A stretch of DNA of 29,834 nt from IMG/VR virus record IMGVR_UViG_3300033141_002596, positions 1 to 29,834 of that record; one strand, given 5' to 3'. Numbering within the stretch: the stretch's first letter is position 1; each line of letters opens with the position of its first letter. The stretch comes from a virus. The notes beneath the pieces were generated by a model. It had not been told where the DNA came from. It did no database searches and saw only the letters and a program-made list of their open reading frames with translations. This document shows positions 17,312 to 27,667 of the stretch, piece after piece. A program made the position numbers and the translations under genes.

Positions 17312-17632
17312 TTATATTTTTATCTTTTCATTTGCTGGTTTCTTGAAATTATACCATTTAATTGTATCATCTAATCTATTTTTTGATATTTCTTTTTCGA
17401 ACTCATTCTCAAACCATTCCTTCGCCTTTTGCCTTGTAGTAAAATCATTTACATTAAGTCCTGTAAATAATTCTGTTATTACCCAGCGTTTTCTCCACTT
17501 TCTTTCCTGCCACCAGCCTACTGCAAATTGAAACCCATATTTTTCACCAAGAAAATATCCTTGTGCTTTTACAAAACTATAATTCTGTTTTTCCATATTG
17601 AAACATCTTATATTATATTCTATTTTTTTCAT
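17312..17632 (-). CDS. Hypothetical protein, 106 aa
   Basis: The protein is basic and rich in aromatic residues. The core KWRKRWVITELFTGLNVNDF then TTRQKAKEWFENEF resembles small phage proteins with 'W.vth..TGl.v....tk..A...', an anti-parallel sheet followed by one helix; their function is not known to me. The ATG overlaps the RusA stop (ATGA), so it is coupled to the resolvase gene. It has no Cys pairs and no membrane segment. Confidence 0.55.
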   Translation of the reverse strand: MKKIEYNIRCFNMEKQNYSFVKAQGYFLGEKYGFQFAVGWWQERKWRKRWVITELFTGLNVNDFTTRQKAKEWFENEFEKEISKNRLDDTIKWYNFKKPANEKIKI

Positions 17633-18099
17633 TTTATTTCCTCCAAACTTGATATTTTAATTTCCATCCGGTCACTTTCTCCCCTCTTTCTTCTTTTCTT
17701 GTCAACAACAATCCTCAATATATTTCTATCATTCTCAATTATTCCAATTTCCTCAAGTGTATCACATACCATTTTTATTATATTGTCTATATCTTTATAT
17801 GTTTCTATCCTCATTCTCATTTCAATGCCTCCCCGGAAGGGTAAGCCTTCCAAGGGAGGTATCTGTTTTTTGATTTCTTTACATAATGCTTTGTAACTCC
17901 TTCTGTACTTCGGGTCCTGAACCGTTATCATGTATCTGTAAATTGTTCTTAACAATTCTTTCATATTCACATGTCCGGTTTCTGCCATTATTCTATACTG
18001 TTCGCAAAACTTCCCAGAATTGAACCAAGGTCTTTTGTTGTTATTCACACTCTCAAGTTTTATTTCATCTATCTTTATCCAAACATCCTTCCCTGTCAT
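17629..18099 (-). CDS. rusA: RusA-like Holliday junction resolvase, 156 aa
   Basis: RusA dimers cut four-way DNA junctions and can clear branched DNA before packaging. The key Asp cluster is present: YKDIDNIIKMVCDTL gives Asp103, Asp105 and Asp113 with Lys109, and IIENDRNILRIVVDKK gives Asp124 and Lys134, matching the family's 'D.DN..K...D.L......dD..i......K'. The N-terminal half (about 1-60) is longer than in E. coli RusA (120 aa) and has PWFNSGKFCEQYRI of unknown role. The gene overlaps both neighbours by four bases. The Rad50-like ATPase, RusA and the helicase form one recombination/replication block. Confidence 0.85.
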   Translation of the reverse strand: MTGKDVWIKIDEIKLESVNNNKRPWFNSGKFCEQYRIMAETGHVNMKELLRTIYRYMITVQDPKYRRSYKALCKEIKKQIPPLEGLPFRGGIEMRMRIETYKDIDNIIKMVCDTLEEIGIIENDRNILRIVVDKKRRKRGESDRMEIKISSLEEIK

Positions 18100-19367
18100 T
18101 TTATTTCTCCATTTTCAATATATACTGCACTTCCTTTTCCTTCTGCAACTTTCTCGATCCACACCTGATAGTCCTTCTCCTCTGCCATTTTGACAACTTC
18201 GCCCATTGACCTCTTATCAAGTAATGACCCGTCATGTATCAGAATTATCCTCAATTCTGGGTTCTGTGCCATCGCTATTGCCATTGAAACTTTGACTTTT
18301 TCTGAAAGTGAAGACAAGTTCTCAAAATCCACACCATTGTACAATATTTGATTTCCTTCTATTTTCAGTCCTTCGATTGGCACTTTTGCATTCATTATTC
18401 TTGCCGTTTTCTCTTTTGCCATTCCTGACATTTCTTTTTCTATCGCATTTATTACTGCATCATATTTTTCCTTTTCCTTCTCCAGTCTCTTGGTCATATC
18501 AATTTTTTCTTTTGCCATCATGTATTGTTCTATCTTTTCCAACTCCCCTTCAAGTTCCTTTGTCTCTTTTTCCTTTTTGTTTGACTTTTCAATTTGAGTT
18601 TTTTCAAGTGTCATTTTCCAATTATCATCCTCAAGTTTTCGCTTCTTTTTCGTCAATAAAATTATTTGCCTGTCTATTTCTGTAATCTGTTCTGAGTTTC
18701 TTTCTATTCTATCGCTTATTATATCTATCCTTGCTCTTTCTTCCCTGACTTTTGAATTCCATTCAACAATTTTTCCTATTTCCTCCATGACCTCTTTCCT
18801 GCCCCTTTTCGGTTCTGTAATATCTTCTGGTATTCCTGATTGTATTTCTTTATAAGACTTTTCGACTCTATCCCTGTCCCGTTTTATTTCTCTCCTTTTT
18901 TCATATAATTCATTATACTTCTGTTCCAGATCGTCAATGTCCAACTCCATCACCTTTTTCAGTTCCCTAATCTTCTTTTCCCTGTCCATCGCCAAAAACT
19001 TCAATGGGTCAAATGCTATCTTCCCTATTTTCCCATCCAGAAATGTCTGCGGAGACTTCGGAGTCATCCCATCTTCTGTTTCAATTTTCAAATAACTCCT
19101 ATCTGGATTAGTCCAATACCTTGTCACCACAAATCCCTCAACCGCTACCTTTATAACTGCTTTTTCCTCACCTTTTCGGACAACTCCTTTTGGAATGAGT
19201 TTCTCGCCCCCCAATGCATATGCTATAGCATCGAGGGTTGAACTCTTTCCTTGTGCATTTTTACCCTCGACAACTACAACATTCCCCTCAGGCTTGATGT
19301 CAACAACCTTAATTCTCTTGATGTTCTCAACATGCAATTCCTTTACTCCAAATTTTACCTCTTTCAT
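18096..19367 (-). CDS. Rad50/SbcC-like SMC-family ATPase, 423 aa
   Basis: The N-terminal ATPase half has Walker A GKNAQGKSS (35-43) within VVVEGKNAQGKSSTLDAIAY. A coiled-coil arm spans about 120-330, rich in Lys/Glu. The C-terminal half has the ABC signature NLSSLSEKVKVSMAIAM and the Walker B region RIILIHDGSLLD, in which Asp-Gly stands where Rad50 has Asp-Glu, as in other short phage homologues. The arm is much shorter than in SbcC, and no SbcD/Mre11 nuclease gene is in the window. Such phage proteins are linked to recombination or end processing. AGGAGGTG lies before ATG 19367. Confidence 0.87.
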   Translation of the reverse strand: MKEVKFGVKELHVENIKRIKVVDIKPEGNVVVVEGKNAQGKSSTLDAIAYALGGEKLIPKGVVRKGEEKAVIKVAVEGFVVTRYWTNPDRSYLKIETEDGMTPKSPQTFLDGKIGKIAFDPLKFLAMDREKKIRELKKVMELDIDDLEQKYNELYEKRREIKRDRDRVEKSYKEIQSGIPEDITEPKRGRKEVMEEIGKIVEWNSKVREERARIDIISDRIERNSEQITEIDRQIILLTKKKRKLEDDNWKMTLEKTQIEKSNKKEKETKELEGELEKIEQYMMAKEKIDMTKRLEKEKEKYDAVINAIEKEMSGMAKEKTARIMNAKVPIEGLKIEGNQILYNGVDFENLSSLSEKVKVSMAIAMAQNPELRIILIHDGSLLDKRSMGEVVKMAEEKDYQVWIEKVAEGKGSAVYIENGEIK

Positions 19368-19394
19368 ATTACACCTCCTATATTTTTTTATTGA

Positions 19395-19545
19395 GTTATC
19401 ATTTTACATGATAACTTATATTATATACTATTATCACGACGGTTACGGTTATCAGTTATCATATATATATATATATATATGATAACTGTCTGTAACCGTA
19501 ACACGCAGTATATATAAGATAACCTTGATAACTGATAATGATAAC
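19395..19545 (-). repeat. Iteron-like TGATAAC cluster with large AT-centred hairpin (candidate origin or operator)
   Basis: In 151 non-coding bases the heptamer TGATAAC or its complement GTTATCA occurs seven times (19395, 19409, 19448, 19455, 19480, 19526 and 19539), with near copies at 19517 and 19533. Two copies at each side of an (AT)n run form a long hairpin: GTTACGGTTA (19442-19451) pairs with TAACCGTAAC (19493-19502) and CAGTTATC (19453-19460) with GATAACTG (19481-19488). Iterons plus an AT-rich centre next to a replicative helicase gene are typical of an origin, but binding by a repressor is equally possible. Confidence 0.6.
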
Positions 19546-19546
19546 T

Positions 19547-20755
19547 TCATTTCAAATACCATAATCTTTCTATATTTTCTACCTTTCCCGACGCCCTTAG
19601 TCTTGATAATGTCATTTTAACTGTATTTTTATCTTCTCCCAGCCTATCAACTATTCCACCCAGATACATCCCCCCCCTGTTTTCCTCGAGCAATCTTAAT
19701 ATTCTTGTTGTTATCGGTACTTTTTGTTCTAATGAAGTCCCCTCGATCGGTATTTCATATATTTCTATTATGTCGGGTTTAAATATTAGTTTCAGTCCTA
19801 TCGGTTCGACAAGTTTCATTATATTAGACTTTCTATGGAATATCCCAACCAACAATTCATTCTCCCTGTCATAAGCCTTTGCTATTTCAAACAGGTTTCT
19901 TGCATTGTTCACGAAATATACACTGCCATAAGGTGTTTTTTGTTTTTCATTCGGGTTTTTTGATGTGTGGGTTATTAGAATATTAGTTGTCCCAAACTCT
20001 CGCAATATCGAACAAAGTTTATTTGCACCCATGGCCTCATTCAATTCTATTCCTGTTGCTATTCCAGCCGAATCGACAATAACAACCTCTACCTTATTCT
20101 CAACTATAATTTCCTTGATGTTATTTTCATCATGATGCAATGGAAGACAACATCTCCTGTATAATATTTTCAATCCGCTTAAACCCAGCCCTTTCAATAT
20201 TCGTCTGTATTGCCAGTTTATTATTTCTTTGCTGGTCTCATAATCCAGATACAATATGCTTTTGACTTTTTTTTCCAGTTTAAAACTGTTTATTATACTT
20301 TCTTCCTGCATCATTGCAGCCATCATCAGAGCAACAGTAGACTTCCCTATTCCACCCTCTCCATACATTATAGTTAATTGCTTTTCCATTACCACGGGGT
20401 ATAATATCCATTTTGGCATCTCCATATTCCCATTTCCGTCCAAAACAACCACAGGTTCGCCCTGTTCGAACTGCATTGCTGTATATACTCTTAATTGCTC
20501 TATTATAGTTTCCCAATCTGTTAAATCTTTATATTTATACAGGTCTTTCATGAGATAATTTTTTGATGTGATTGATGAGAAATTAAAGTTTGACTGGTGA
20601 AGATGTGGTTTATAGTTTTTTTCCCACGTCTCTATTCTTATCGCACCATGTATCGAATTCTTCTCATACCGCAAGTTTTTCACAAATATTTTTATCTTTG
20701 CCTCTTTCCACAAGAATTCATATCCGAGTATATTTTTAATAATTTCGGGTTGCAT
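19547..20755 (-). CDS. RepA-like replicative helicase/ATPase (AAA_25 type), 402 aa
   Basis: This RecA-fold ATPase probably unwinds DNA at the fork. Walker A is YGEGGIGKST (residues 131-140), followed by ILYLDYETS (168-175), Walker B VVIVDSAG (224-231) and the sensor NILITHTSK (258-266), the order seen in RSF1010 RepA and AAA_25 proteins. Residues 1-115 form a separate N-terminal domain of unknown type. The C-terminal 60 residues (ITTRILRLLEENRGGMYLGG, then LSRLRASGKVENIERLWYL) look like a winged helix for DNA binding. ATG 20755 lies inside the end of the primase-like gene, in the -1 frame, with a G7 run about 10 bases upstream. Confidence 0.85.
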   Translation of the reverse strand: MQPEIIKNILGYEFLWKEAKIKIFVKNLRYEKNSIHGAIRIETWEKNYKPHLHQSNFNFSSITSKNYLMKDLYKYKDLTDWETIIEQLRVYTAMQFEQGEPVVVLDGNGNMEMPKWILYPVVMEKQLTIMYGEGGIGKSTVALMMAAMMQEESIINSFKLEKKVKSILYLDYETSKEIINWQYRRILKGLGLSGLKILYRRCCLPLHHDENNIKEIIVENKVEVVIVDSAGIATGIELNEAMGANKLCSILREFGTTNILITHTSKNPNEKQKTPYGSVYFVNNARNLFEIAKAYDRENELLVGIFHRKSNIMKLVEPIGLKLIFKPDIIEIYEIPIEGTSLEQKVPITTRILRLLEENRGGMYLGGIVDRLGEDKNTVKMTLSRLRASGKVENIERLWYLK

Positions 20756-21054
20756 ATATCTATTCCCCCCCTGTGGTCTTTCATAATATTTTTTGGTTTG
20801 CTTTTTGTTAATATTTCTTTTTTAGGGTTATGACTGAAATCAATGCTTTCAAAAATACCTAAAAGTCGCAATGCTTGTACTATTTCTTCAAAAGAACATC
20901 CGGCAAAACAGTGCATTAAAACCCGATCCCCTTCCTGCCGAATTGAAAGAGAAGGGTTGTTGTCAGGATGTGCTGGACATCGTGCCCGCCATTTGTTGTT
21001 TCCGACCCTTTTGCCTTGCAATTTTTTTGCTATTTCCTCGCCAGTTACAAACAT
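20692..21054 (-). CDS. CHC2 zinc-finger primase-like protein, 120 aa
   Basis: The start is ATG 21054 (MFVTGEEIAKKLQG), nine bases after AAAGG. The DnaG-type zinc-binding domain fills most of it: ARCPAHPDNNPSLSI with Cys26 and His29, and LMHCFAGCSFEEIVQAL with Cys49 and Cys53. This domain reads the template in primases. No Toprim or polymerase domain follows; the last 50 residues are polar. The gene overlaps the helicase gene by 64 bases in the -1 frame, so the finger may act in trans or be fused by frameshifting. It lies directly after a pentamer-repeat array. Confidence 0.82.
   Translation of the reverse strand: MFVTGEEIAKKLQGKRVGNNKWRARCPAHPDNNPSLSIRQEGDRVLMHCFAGCSFEEIVQALRLLGIFESIDFSHNPKKEILTKSKPKNIMKDHRGGIDICNPKLLKIYSDMNSCGKRQR
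20764..20772 (-). promoter_or_regulatory. G7 run, possible -1 frameshift site between zinc-finger and helicase genes
   Basis: In the zinc-finger frame the codons read AGG GGG GGA, a G-GGG-GGA heptamer. A -1 slip here continues without a stop into the helicase frame, giving a fusion of about 500 aa. The same G-run may instead serve as ribosome binding site for ATG 20755, or it may be a sequencing indel. Confidence 0.4.
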
Positions 21055-21103
21055 TTTTATCATCCTTTTTATAAAAATAGAATATATAAATTCTTACCAT
21101 ATA

Positions 21104-21193
21104 ATGCCTCGCCTCACCCCACCTTATCGTACCAAACCGGACATTGCCTTATCCCACCACACTTGACCTTATCCCTTCCCACCAAACCGCACT
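21104..21193 (-). repeat. Degenerate pentamer array 1 (18 units, GGTNN)
   Basis: Read on the minus strand from 21193, the sequence divides without gaps into 18 five-base units such as AGTGC GGTTT GGTGG, then GATAA GGTCA. Position 1 is G in 15 of 18, position 2 is G or A, position 3 is T or C in 17, and positions 4-5 vary freely. It begins four bases after the stop of the 88-aa gene and ends in the leader of the primase-like gene. No open frame runs through it. Confidence 0.85.
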
Positions 21194-21196
21194 CTA

Positions 21197-21463
21197 TTAT
21201 TTCTTTGCATCTGGCAACATTTTCGGCAATGTTGCTCTTATATATCTCTCTCTTATTTCGGGATTTGTGAAAGCCATACCTATCATCTTCAATTTTTGGT
21301 CAATGGCTATTCTATCGTTTACCATGTATGAATGTTTTACTCTCAATGCAATATTTGCCTTTTGATATAATCTGCCGAATTCTTTTGCTTCGCATTTTCT
21401 TGCATCTGCATCTAAAAAATCCATAATTGCCTTGTCTGATTTTTCAAGCATTACATCATTCAT
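21197..21463 (-). CDS. Hypothetical protein enclosed by pentamer arrays, 88 aa
   Basis: A small helical protein with a mixed charge pattern: IMDFLDADARKCEAKEFGRL, then NIALRVKHSYMVNDR and NPEIRERYIRATLPKML. It has one Cys and no zinc motif or membrane segment. AGGAGGATTATT directly precedes ATG 21463. I recognise no family. What is odd is its position: repeat arrays lie about 30 bases upstream and four bases downstream of it. It may bind the repeats, or simply have been spared between them. Confidence 0.65.
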   Translation of the reverse strand: MNDVMLEKSDKAIMDFLDADARKCEAKEFGRLYQKANIALRVKHSYMVNDRIAIDQKLKMIGMAFTNPEIRERYIRATLPKMLPDAKK

Positions 21464-21493
21464 AATAATCCTCCTATTTATATAATTTTTAAT

Positions 21494-21563
21494 AACGCAA
21501 ACATTACTTTACCTGACCGAATCATACCACACCGAACCCAATTTAACCACACACGGCCTTGCC
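21494..21563 (-). repeat. Degenerate pentamer array 2a (14 units, GGTNN)
   Basis: From 21563 on the minus strand the units run GGCAA GGCCG TGTGT GGTTA and so on to GCGTT at 21494, with 13 of 14 having T or C at position 3. It ends about 25 bases before the ribosome binding site of the 88-aa gene. It is separated from array 2b by an AT-only stretch of about 40 bases (21564-21605) that contains AATATTTATTATT and AAAATTTT. Confidence 0.83.
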
Positions 21564-27020: not shown

Positions 27021-27136
27021 TTTTAAATCTCCTTCTATGGCCTTATTTCTTGCTGTGCATTTTTCATCATCTTCAAAAAATGCACAGTTTCTATCCCCAT
27101 TTTCAAAATCTATTTTATTTTTTCTCGTTAAAAACC

Positions 27137-27268: not shown

Positions 27269-27667
27269 TTAACATCCGCAATAGTAATAACCGCTATTGA
27301 GGATGTTATATTTTTTATTTAATTCAAAAGTTGGCATATGACATATTTTTTTGAATTCATCATATGGTATTCTTTCTATACTGCCATTGTGAAATCTCCC
27401 CTGTATGCGATATCTACCGCATGACTCGCAGACTCTCACGACGAGAGCTCCTTCATAAAATTCATTTTTTAATAAACTTATTTTTGCATTATAAATTCTC
27501 TCAACGTCGTTCTTTGCATCGGCAAAAGCCTGACACCCTGGACATAGACTATAATCATAGTCTATGCAGGTACATTTCGTGAATGTTTTTCTATCAATTT
27601 TTTCAATCTTTTCTTGCATTTTTTTTACTAATTCTTCAAGTTTTTTTTCAAATTCTTTTCTATCCAT
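27269..27667 (-). CDS. Cys-rich hypothetical protein, 132 aa
   Basis: The N-terminal 25 residues form a charged helix (FEKKLEELVKKMQEKIEKID). Then come CTC (32-34), CPGC (42-45) and CESCG (about 80-84), two or three possible zinc sites, and the protein ends in YYYCGC. The region GRYRIQGRFHNGSIERIPYD looks like a beta hairpin. Together it resembles a small zinc-ribbon adaptor with a coiled-coil handle. AAGGAGGAAGGAA precedes ATG 27667. No family recognised. Confidence 0.6.
   Translation of the reverse strand: MDRKEFEKKLEELVKKMQEKIEKIDRKTFTKCTCIDYDYSLCPGCQAFADAKNDVERIYNAKISLLKNEFYEGALVVRVCESCGRYRIQGRFHNGSIERIPYDEFKKICHMPTFELNKKYNILNSGYYYCGC

Follow-up and report, generated by a model that had tools for sequence, protein, structure and literature searches.

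In the SaPI elements and in SCCmec Cch2, according to the relevant passages of PMC7581432, the replication origin lies directly 3′ of the helicase gene, where helicases of the D5/Primase_Cterm or DUF927 type recognize short iterons through their C-terminal domain; the Cch2 region, with an iteron of just 5 nt, also has inverted repeats. PMC4234260 describes a long stem-loop immediately downstream of the replication gene for pRN1 and, as a proposal, for phage BIP-1. The pRN1 stem-loop is ~100 nt long with a large loop, iterons are missing from the pRN1 origin as described there, and the pRN1 replication protein unites a prim-pol and a superfamily 3 helicase and ends in a winged helix. The same account describes the oriV of RSF1010 (IncQ), which combines iterons and stem-loops and is served by a RepA-type helicase of RecA fold together with a separate iteron binder, RepC, as well as the satellite phage P4, whose alpha protein is a fused Toprim primase–helicase with a winged helix that binds the origin repeats.

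Here we describe a 179-bp intergenic region in a virus record of 29,834 bases, the whole of which is called the window below and which belongs to a tailed phage. Like the SaPI and Cch2 origins, the region has short iteron-like units immediately 3′ of a helicase gene, and the C-terminal domain that would recognize them is here a predicted one; unlike those origins, it is accompanied by a helicase of the AAA_25 family and is centred on an 18-bp palindrome extended by further arms. With pRN1 and BIP-1 it shares the long stem-loop 3′ of a replication gene, and the predicted helix-turn-helix at the end of the helicase resembles pRN1 with its C-terminal winged helix; the hairpin measures 61 nt, and neither a Prim-Pol nor an SF3 family was found in the helicase by Pfam. 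RSF1010 resembles it in helicase type and in pairing iterons with stem-loops, but no counterpart of RepC was recognized here, where most small ORFs match no family. The binding of origin repeats by a domain of the replication protein itself, as in P4, is what we propose by analogy, the P4 helicase being of another class. The region would work like the SaPI/SCCmec and pRN1 origins, yet it is a member of neither family, because the SaPI/Cch2 helicases are of another class and because pRN1 lacks iterons and relies on a prim-pol/superfamily 3 protein. A literature query on the heptamer brought up no evidently related work among the matches listed, as judged by title; for the layout, absence from the literature searched would be no proof.

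Organization of the intergenic region

The terminase, portal and tape measure genes lie at one side of the window and a replication/recombination block at the other, and all likely genes are carried by the minus strand. Around the helicase gene are genes for RusA, a Rad50-like protein, a zinc ribbon, a PD-(D/E)XK nuclease and RecT. The sequence-only reading had placed the cluster between the helicase and the Rad50-like gene, and this context proved correct: an AAA_25 helicase gene ends at 19547, the Rad50-like ORF begins at 19367, and the minus strand carries both (Table 1). The zinc-ribbon protein upstream of the helicase is DnaG-like and lacks the catalytic primase domain; it stands alone, and because the scanned window proteins showed no Toprim or prim-pol domain, none of them accounts for the primase. 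No tRNA, intrinsic terminator or Rfam family was found.

Table 1. Features of the intergenic region and its flanking genes (window coordinates).
Feature	Position	Strand	Remark
Rad50/SbcC-like ATPase (P0002), 423 aa	18096..19367	-	strong ribosome-binding site upstream
Intergenic region, 179 bp	19368..19546		GC 0.25; helicase stop to Rad50-like start
Second palindrome, AGTTATCAT-N5-ATGATAACT	19394..19416		possible operator
TGATAAC copy 1	19395..19401	-
TGATAAC copy 2	19409..19415	+	sole left-of-centre copy pointing inward
TATAAT hexamer	19420..19425	-	coding strand; possible promoter of Rad50-like operon
TGATAAT, one-base variant	19430..19436	-
Extended hairpin, 61 nt	19442..19502		outer arms 19442-19451 / 19493-19502 (GTTACGGTTA / TAACCGTAAC)
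TGATAAC copy 3	19448..19454	-
Perfect 18-bp palindrome	19453..19488		(AT)n core; CAGTTATCATATATATAT / ATATATATATGATAACTG
TGATAAC copy 4	19455..19461	-
TGATAAC copy 5	19480..19486	+
AGATAAC, one-base variant	19517..19523	+
TGATAAC-TGATAAT-TGATAAC	19526..19545	+	three units head-to-tail; copies 6 (start 19526) and 7 (start 19539) exact, variant start 19533
AAA_25 / RepA-type helicase (P0001), 402 aa	19547..20755	-	family profile match
Predicted helix-turn-helix	19550..19753	-	helicase C-terminal 68 residues; profile and model
CHC2 zinc-ribbon ORF, 123 aa	20692..21063	-	DnaG-like; overlaps helicase start

The seven exact copies of TGATAAC in both orientations that had been noted within 19395-19545 are all present, three on the minus and four on the plus strand, and three one-base variants bring the cluster to ten WGATAAY units. 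They stand directly downstream of the helicase gene, the nearest ending 1 bp before its stop codon (19547-19549). Dinucleotide shuffles of the gap contain on average 0.05 TGATAAC, with seven reached in none of 3,000, and any 7-mer with G or C reached seven in just one of 3,000. The whole window has 15 copies, against a shuffle mean of 5.2 and a largest value of 10; all eight copies outside the cluster fall within called ORFs. By repeated 8-mers in 200-bp stretches the gap is the densest short-repeat cluster of the window, with 0.17% of 200-bp windows scoring equally high, and the other intergenic regions of the window hold no second site of this kind. Relative to the palindrome centre, four minus units and one plus unit lie on the left and five plus units on the right, so that nine of the ten point outward (Fisher two-sided ~0.05). 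Their start-to-start spacing is irregular: 14, 21, 18, 7, 25, 37, 9, 7 and 6 bp. A separate pair was seen inside an ORF at 876-897, where TGATAAC and its inverse lie 8 nt apart (TGATAACTCCGTCAAGTTATCA) in the orientation opposite to that of the main palindromes.

The (AT)n core reported earlier is confirmed and occupies the centre of a palindrome. The two-part stem of 10 + 8 bp described with it needs revision: the 10-bp outer arms stand, whereas the inner part is not 8 bp long but a perfect 18-bp palindrome, the two together forming a hairpin that lies 44 bp from the helicase stop codon. The smaller palindrome has the same arms as the main one. Folded as DNA, 19436-19508 reaches -22.4 kcal/mol (z -7.7), a value equalled in none of 200 shuffles; as RNA of the coding strand, the fold has -33.8 kcal/mol. 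An 18-bp arm arose in none of 1,000 shuffles of the gap, in which the largest arm was 12, and among 77 sequences with 994,553 bases (window included) this is the sole hairpin that pairs perfectly over 14 bp or more and has a loop no longer than 8. Of the non-overlapping 100-bp segments of the window, the second lowest in stability lies in the gap. Two other hairpins occur in the window, at 27053-27087 (12-bp arms, loop 11) and at 27543-27566 (10-bp arms, loop 4).

The helicase and its predicted C-terminal domain

P0001 matches PF13481, AAA_25, with 52.3 bits against a cut-off of 27, and this is its sole helicase domain by Pfam. A study of a phage helicase (PMC8965321) groups this family with RecA-like relatives and states that no function has been described for it. 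Searched against PDB sequences, the full-length protein found no match at E up to 0.1, and a full-length model (pLDDT 32) was unusable.

A helix-turn-helix domain is predicted for the C-terminal 68 residues of P0001. Scanned alone, they score 22.9 bits for HTH_IclR, whose cut-off is 22, the helix-turn-helix matches within full-length P0001 being below the Pfam cut-offs, and AlphaFold2 run on the single sequence of this piece gives a helix-turn-helix without a beta wing (mean pLDDT 81.9). Compared with PDB structures, the model retrieved nearly exclusively winged-helix and other helix-turn-helix proteins among the 50 structures listed, with a best Z of 7.5, middling by the scale of the tool; the best E-value in Foldseek was 0.4. 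Three PDB sequences matched the 68 residues at E 0.2-0.3, which is not significant, and we take them, by name or from general knowledge, to be of winged-helix type. Nine further AAA_25 helicases (seven of the ten proteins in one set and two of the five in another) were scanned as well, and a helix-turn-helix family match at E up to 0.01 was absent from all of them.

Relatives and conservation

Viral contigs were scanned with protein queries as well as with DNA patterns. The terminase found 70 loci there, the best at 57% identity, and the Rad50-like protein two distant matches (31-33%); the helicase, RecT, nuclease and portal found none. In genome contigs the terminase had six distant matches (28-30%), mostly in lactobacilli, and weak relatives of the helicase (21-23%) occurred in 2 of 199 genomes of one phylum. 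Among phages, neither the DNA of 17500-21500 nor, at E up to 1e-5, the helicase found a match; a further helicase search at E up to 0.01 was empty in all 19 records searched, an answer uninformative in itself. No close relative of the helicase or its neighbours emerged from these searches, and the cluster is absent from the distant relatives found. At the DNA level, AGTTATCAT and ATGATAACT occur no more than 30 bp from each other in 53 viral contigs, where at most four TGATAAC lie at up to 200 bp from the first of these sites, and a count over 141 sequences, window included (1,638,551 bases), gave no more than three TGATAAC per 151 nt outside the window.

Possible functions of the region

The earlier proposal of a replication origin or a cooperative operator was a fair pair and is partly supported, the evidence now leaning to an origin. 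This leaning comes from the position of the site directly 3′ of the helicase gene, the predicted DNA-binding C-terminus of that helicase, the outward units, the low duplex stability and the lack of a second intergenic site. Judged by this layout, the 179-bp region may well be a replication origin of the iteron type. The helicase, encoded directly upstream, would bind the TGATAAC units through its own predicted helix-turn-helix at the C-terminus and, as these units face away from the AT core to either side, two helicase sets could assemble facing away from each other. On the evidence of its base composition and fold prediction, the stem-flanked AT core might open as a bubble or cruciform and so offer single strands for loading, and the zinc-ribbon protein encoded beside the helicase may aid priming. 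The irregular unit spacing counts against such an origin, since the iterons of many plasmids are regular, at 20-22 bp. The RSF1010/IncQ oriV has 20-bp tandem iterons, whereas the units here are 7 bp long. Also on the negative side are the lack of the cluster in the relatives found, the outcome of the survey of 11 other phages given below and, for the helicase domain, the full-length scores under the Pfam cut-offs, the weak Foldseek E-value and the missing beta wing. GC skew, which had been put forward as a check, shows no turning point at the cluster; with every likely gene on a single strand, skew is blind here.

In an operator, a regulator of the phage or its host, or the helicase itself, would bind the inverted heptamers and control a promoter of the Rad50-like, RusA and following genes. 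The gap does separate two genes of the same direction, the Rad50-like gene is preceded by a strong ribosome-binding site, AGTTATCAT-N5-ATGATAACT is shaped like a dimer site, and a transcript driven by the TATAAT at 19425-19420 would begin within the palindrome 19394-19416 or next to it. Yet that hexamer has no fitting -35 hexamer (at most 2 of 6 positions), and promoter-like matches number seven against an expected mean of 4.4 (sd 2.3), about one standard deviation from chance. Because the other intergenic regions hold no second such site, there is no sign of a regulon, and no repressor or named regulator was recognized among the scanned ORFs, most small ones of which match nothing. An operator alone would also leave unexplained both the outer arms GTTACGGTTA / TAACCGTAAC and the three head-to-tail units ~100 bp upstream of the hexamer. 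We regard it as less likely than an origin but as a serious rival.

The very stable fold, as DNA and as coding-strand RNA, and the SbcC/Rad50-like ATPase encoded by the adjoining gene would also suit a folded element, be it a hairpin inside the operon at which the mRNA is stabilized or processed, a site of recombination or resolution, or a hairpin that serves the SbcC-like protein as substrate. This seems unlikely, as the region has neither an intrinsic terminator nor an Rfam family, no integrase or site-specific resolvase was recognized among the scanned proteins, and the heptamers outside the hairpin would go unexplained. Partition sites can be clusters of inverted repeats, and by that precedent the region could be the centromere-like site of a plasmid-like virus; with no ParA or ParB family in any scanned protein, and with the terminase and portal of a tailed phage in the genome, we consider this highly improbable.

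A more specific form of the origin reading is put forward tentatively: a RepA-type AAA_25 phage helicase with its own helix-turn-helix might load itself at an origin of inverted heptamers and an AT hairpin, doing alone what RSF1010 splits between RepA and RepC. If the helicase itself binds the units, the RecA-fold helicase class would include a compact initiator made of one protein, whereas in RSF1010, whose helicase is of this class, finding the origin is left to a separate protein. If true, this would also provide a rule for finding origins in phages without known relatives, namely to look for short outward-facing repeats round a palindrome immediately 3′ of a gene whose helicase product has a DNA-binding domain at its end.

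Certain types of amino-acid and codon use are linked to growth temperature. In 20 of the called ORFs of the window the IVYWREL fraction is 0.43, (E+K)/(Q+H) is 4.6 and AGA/AGG make up 86% of arginine codons, values that look like those of a thermophile's virus. High temperature would make the AT core easy to open.

Repeats near helicase genes in other phages

A general rule that repeats follow the helicase gene was tried on 11 phages with Zn-ribbon or RepA-type helicases and was rejected: the stretch 3′ of the gene was the top repeat cluster in none of them and among the top five in three (M8CR30-2, BcepGomr, where it was tied, and Chandler). Three of the 11 loci (Dismas, Euratis and Polewnik) are just 10-11 kb long, and of the ten helicases scanned three, those of M8CR30-2, Dismas and Euratis, are not AAA_25; that of M1EM-1 was outside the scan.

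In the Salinibacter phages M8CR30-2 (locus L154, 17676-17873) and M1EM-1 (L146, 14656-14853) we observed inverted clusters of a TAACACA-based 9-mer, with two copies on each side of ~75 nt at nearly equal spacing in both phages. These clusters lie upstream of a like-sized ORF of 1.09 kb and might be an origin or an operator. They were dropped as support for a helicase-linked origin because in M1EM-1 they are 2.4 kb from the helicase gene, beside the same downstream ORF. In the Burkholderia phage BcepGomr (L145, 5199-5304), a 186-bp gap directly after the RepA helicase gene has repeats of the AAAATAAAT type in both orientations.
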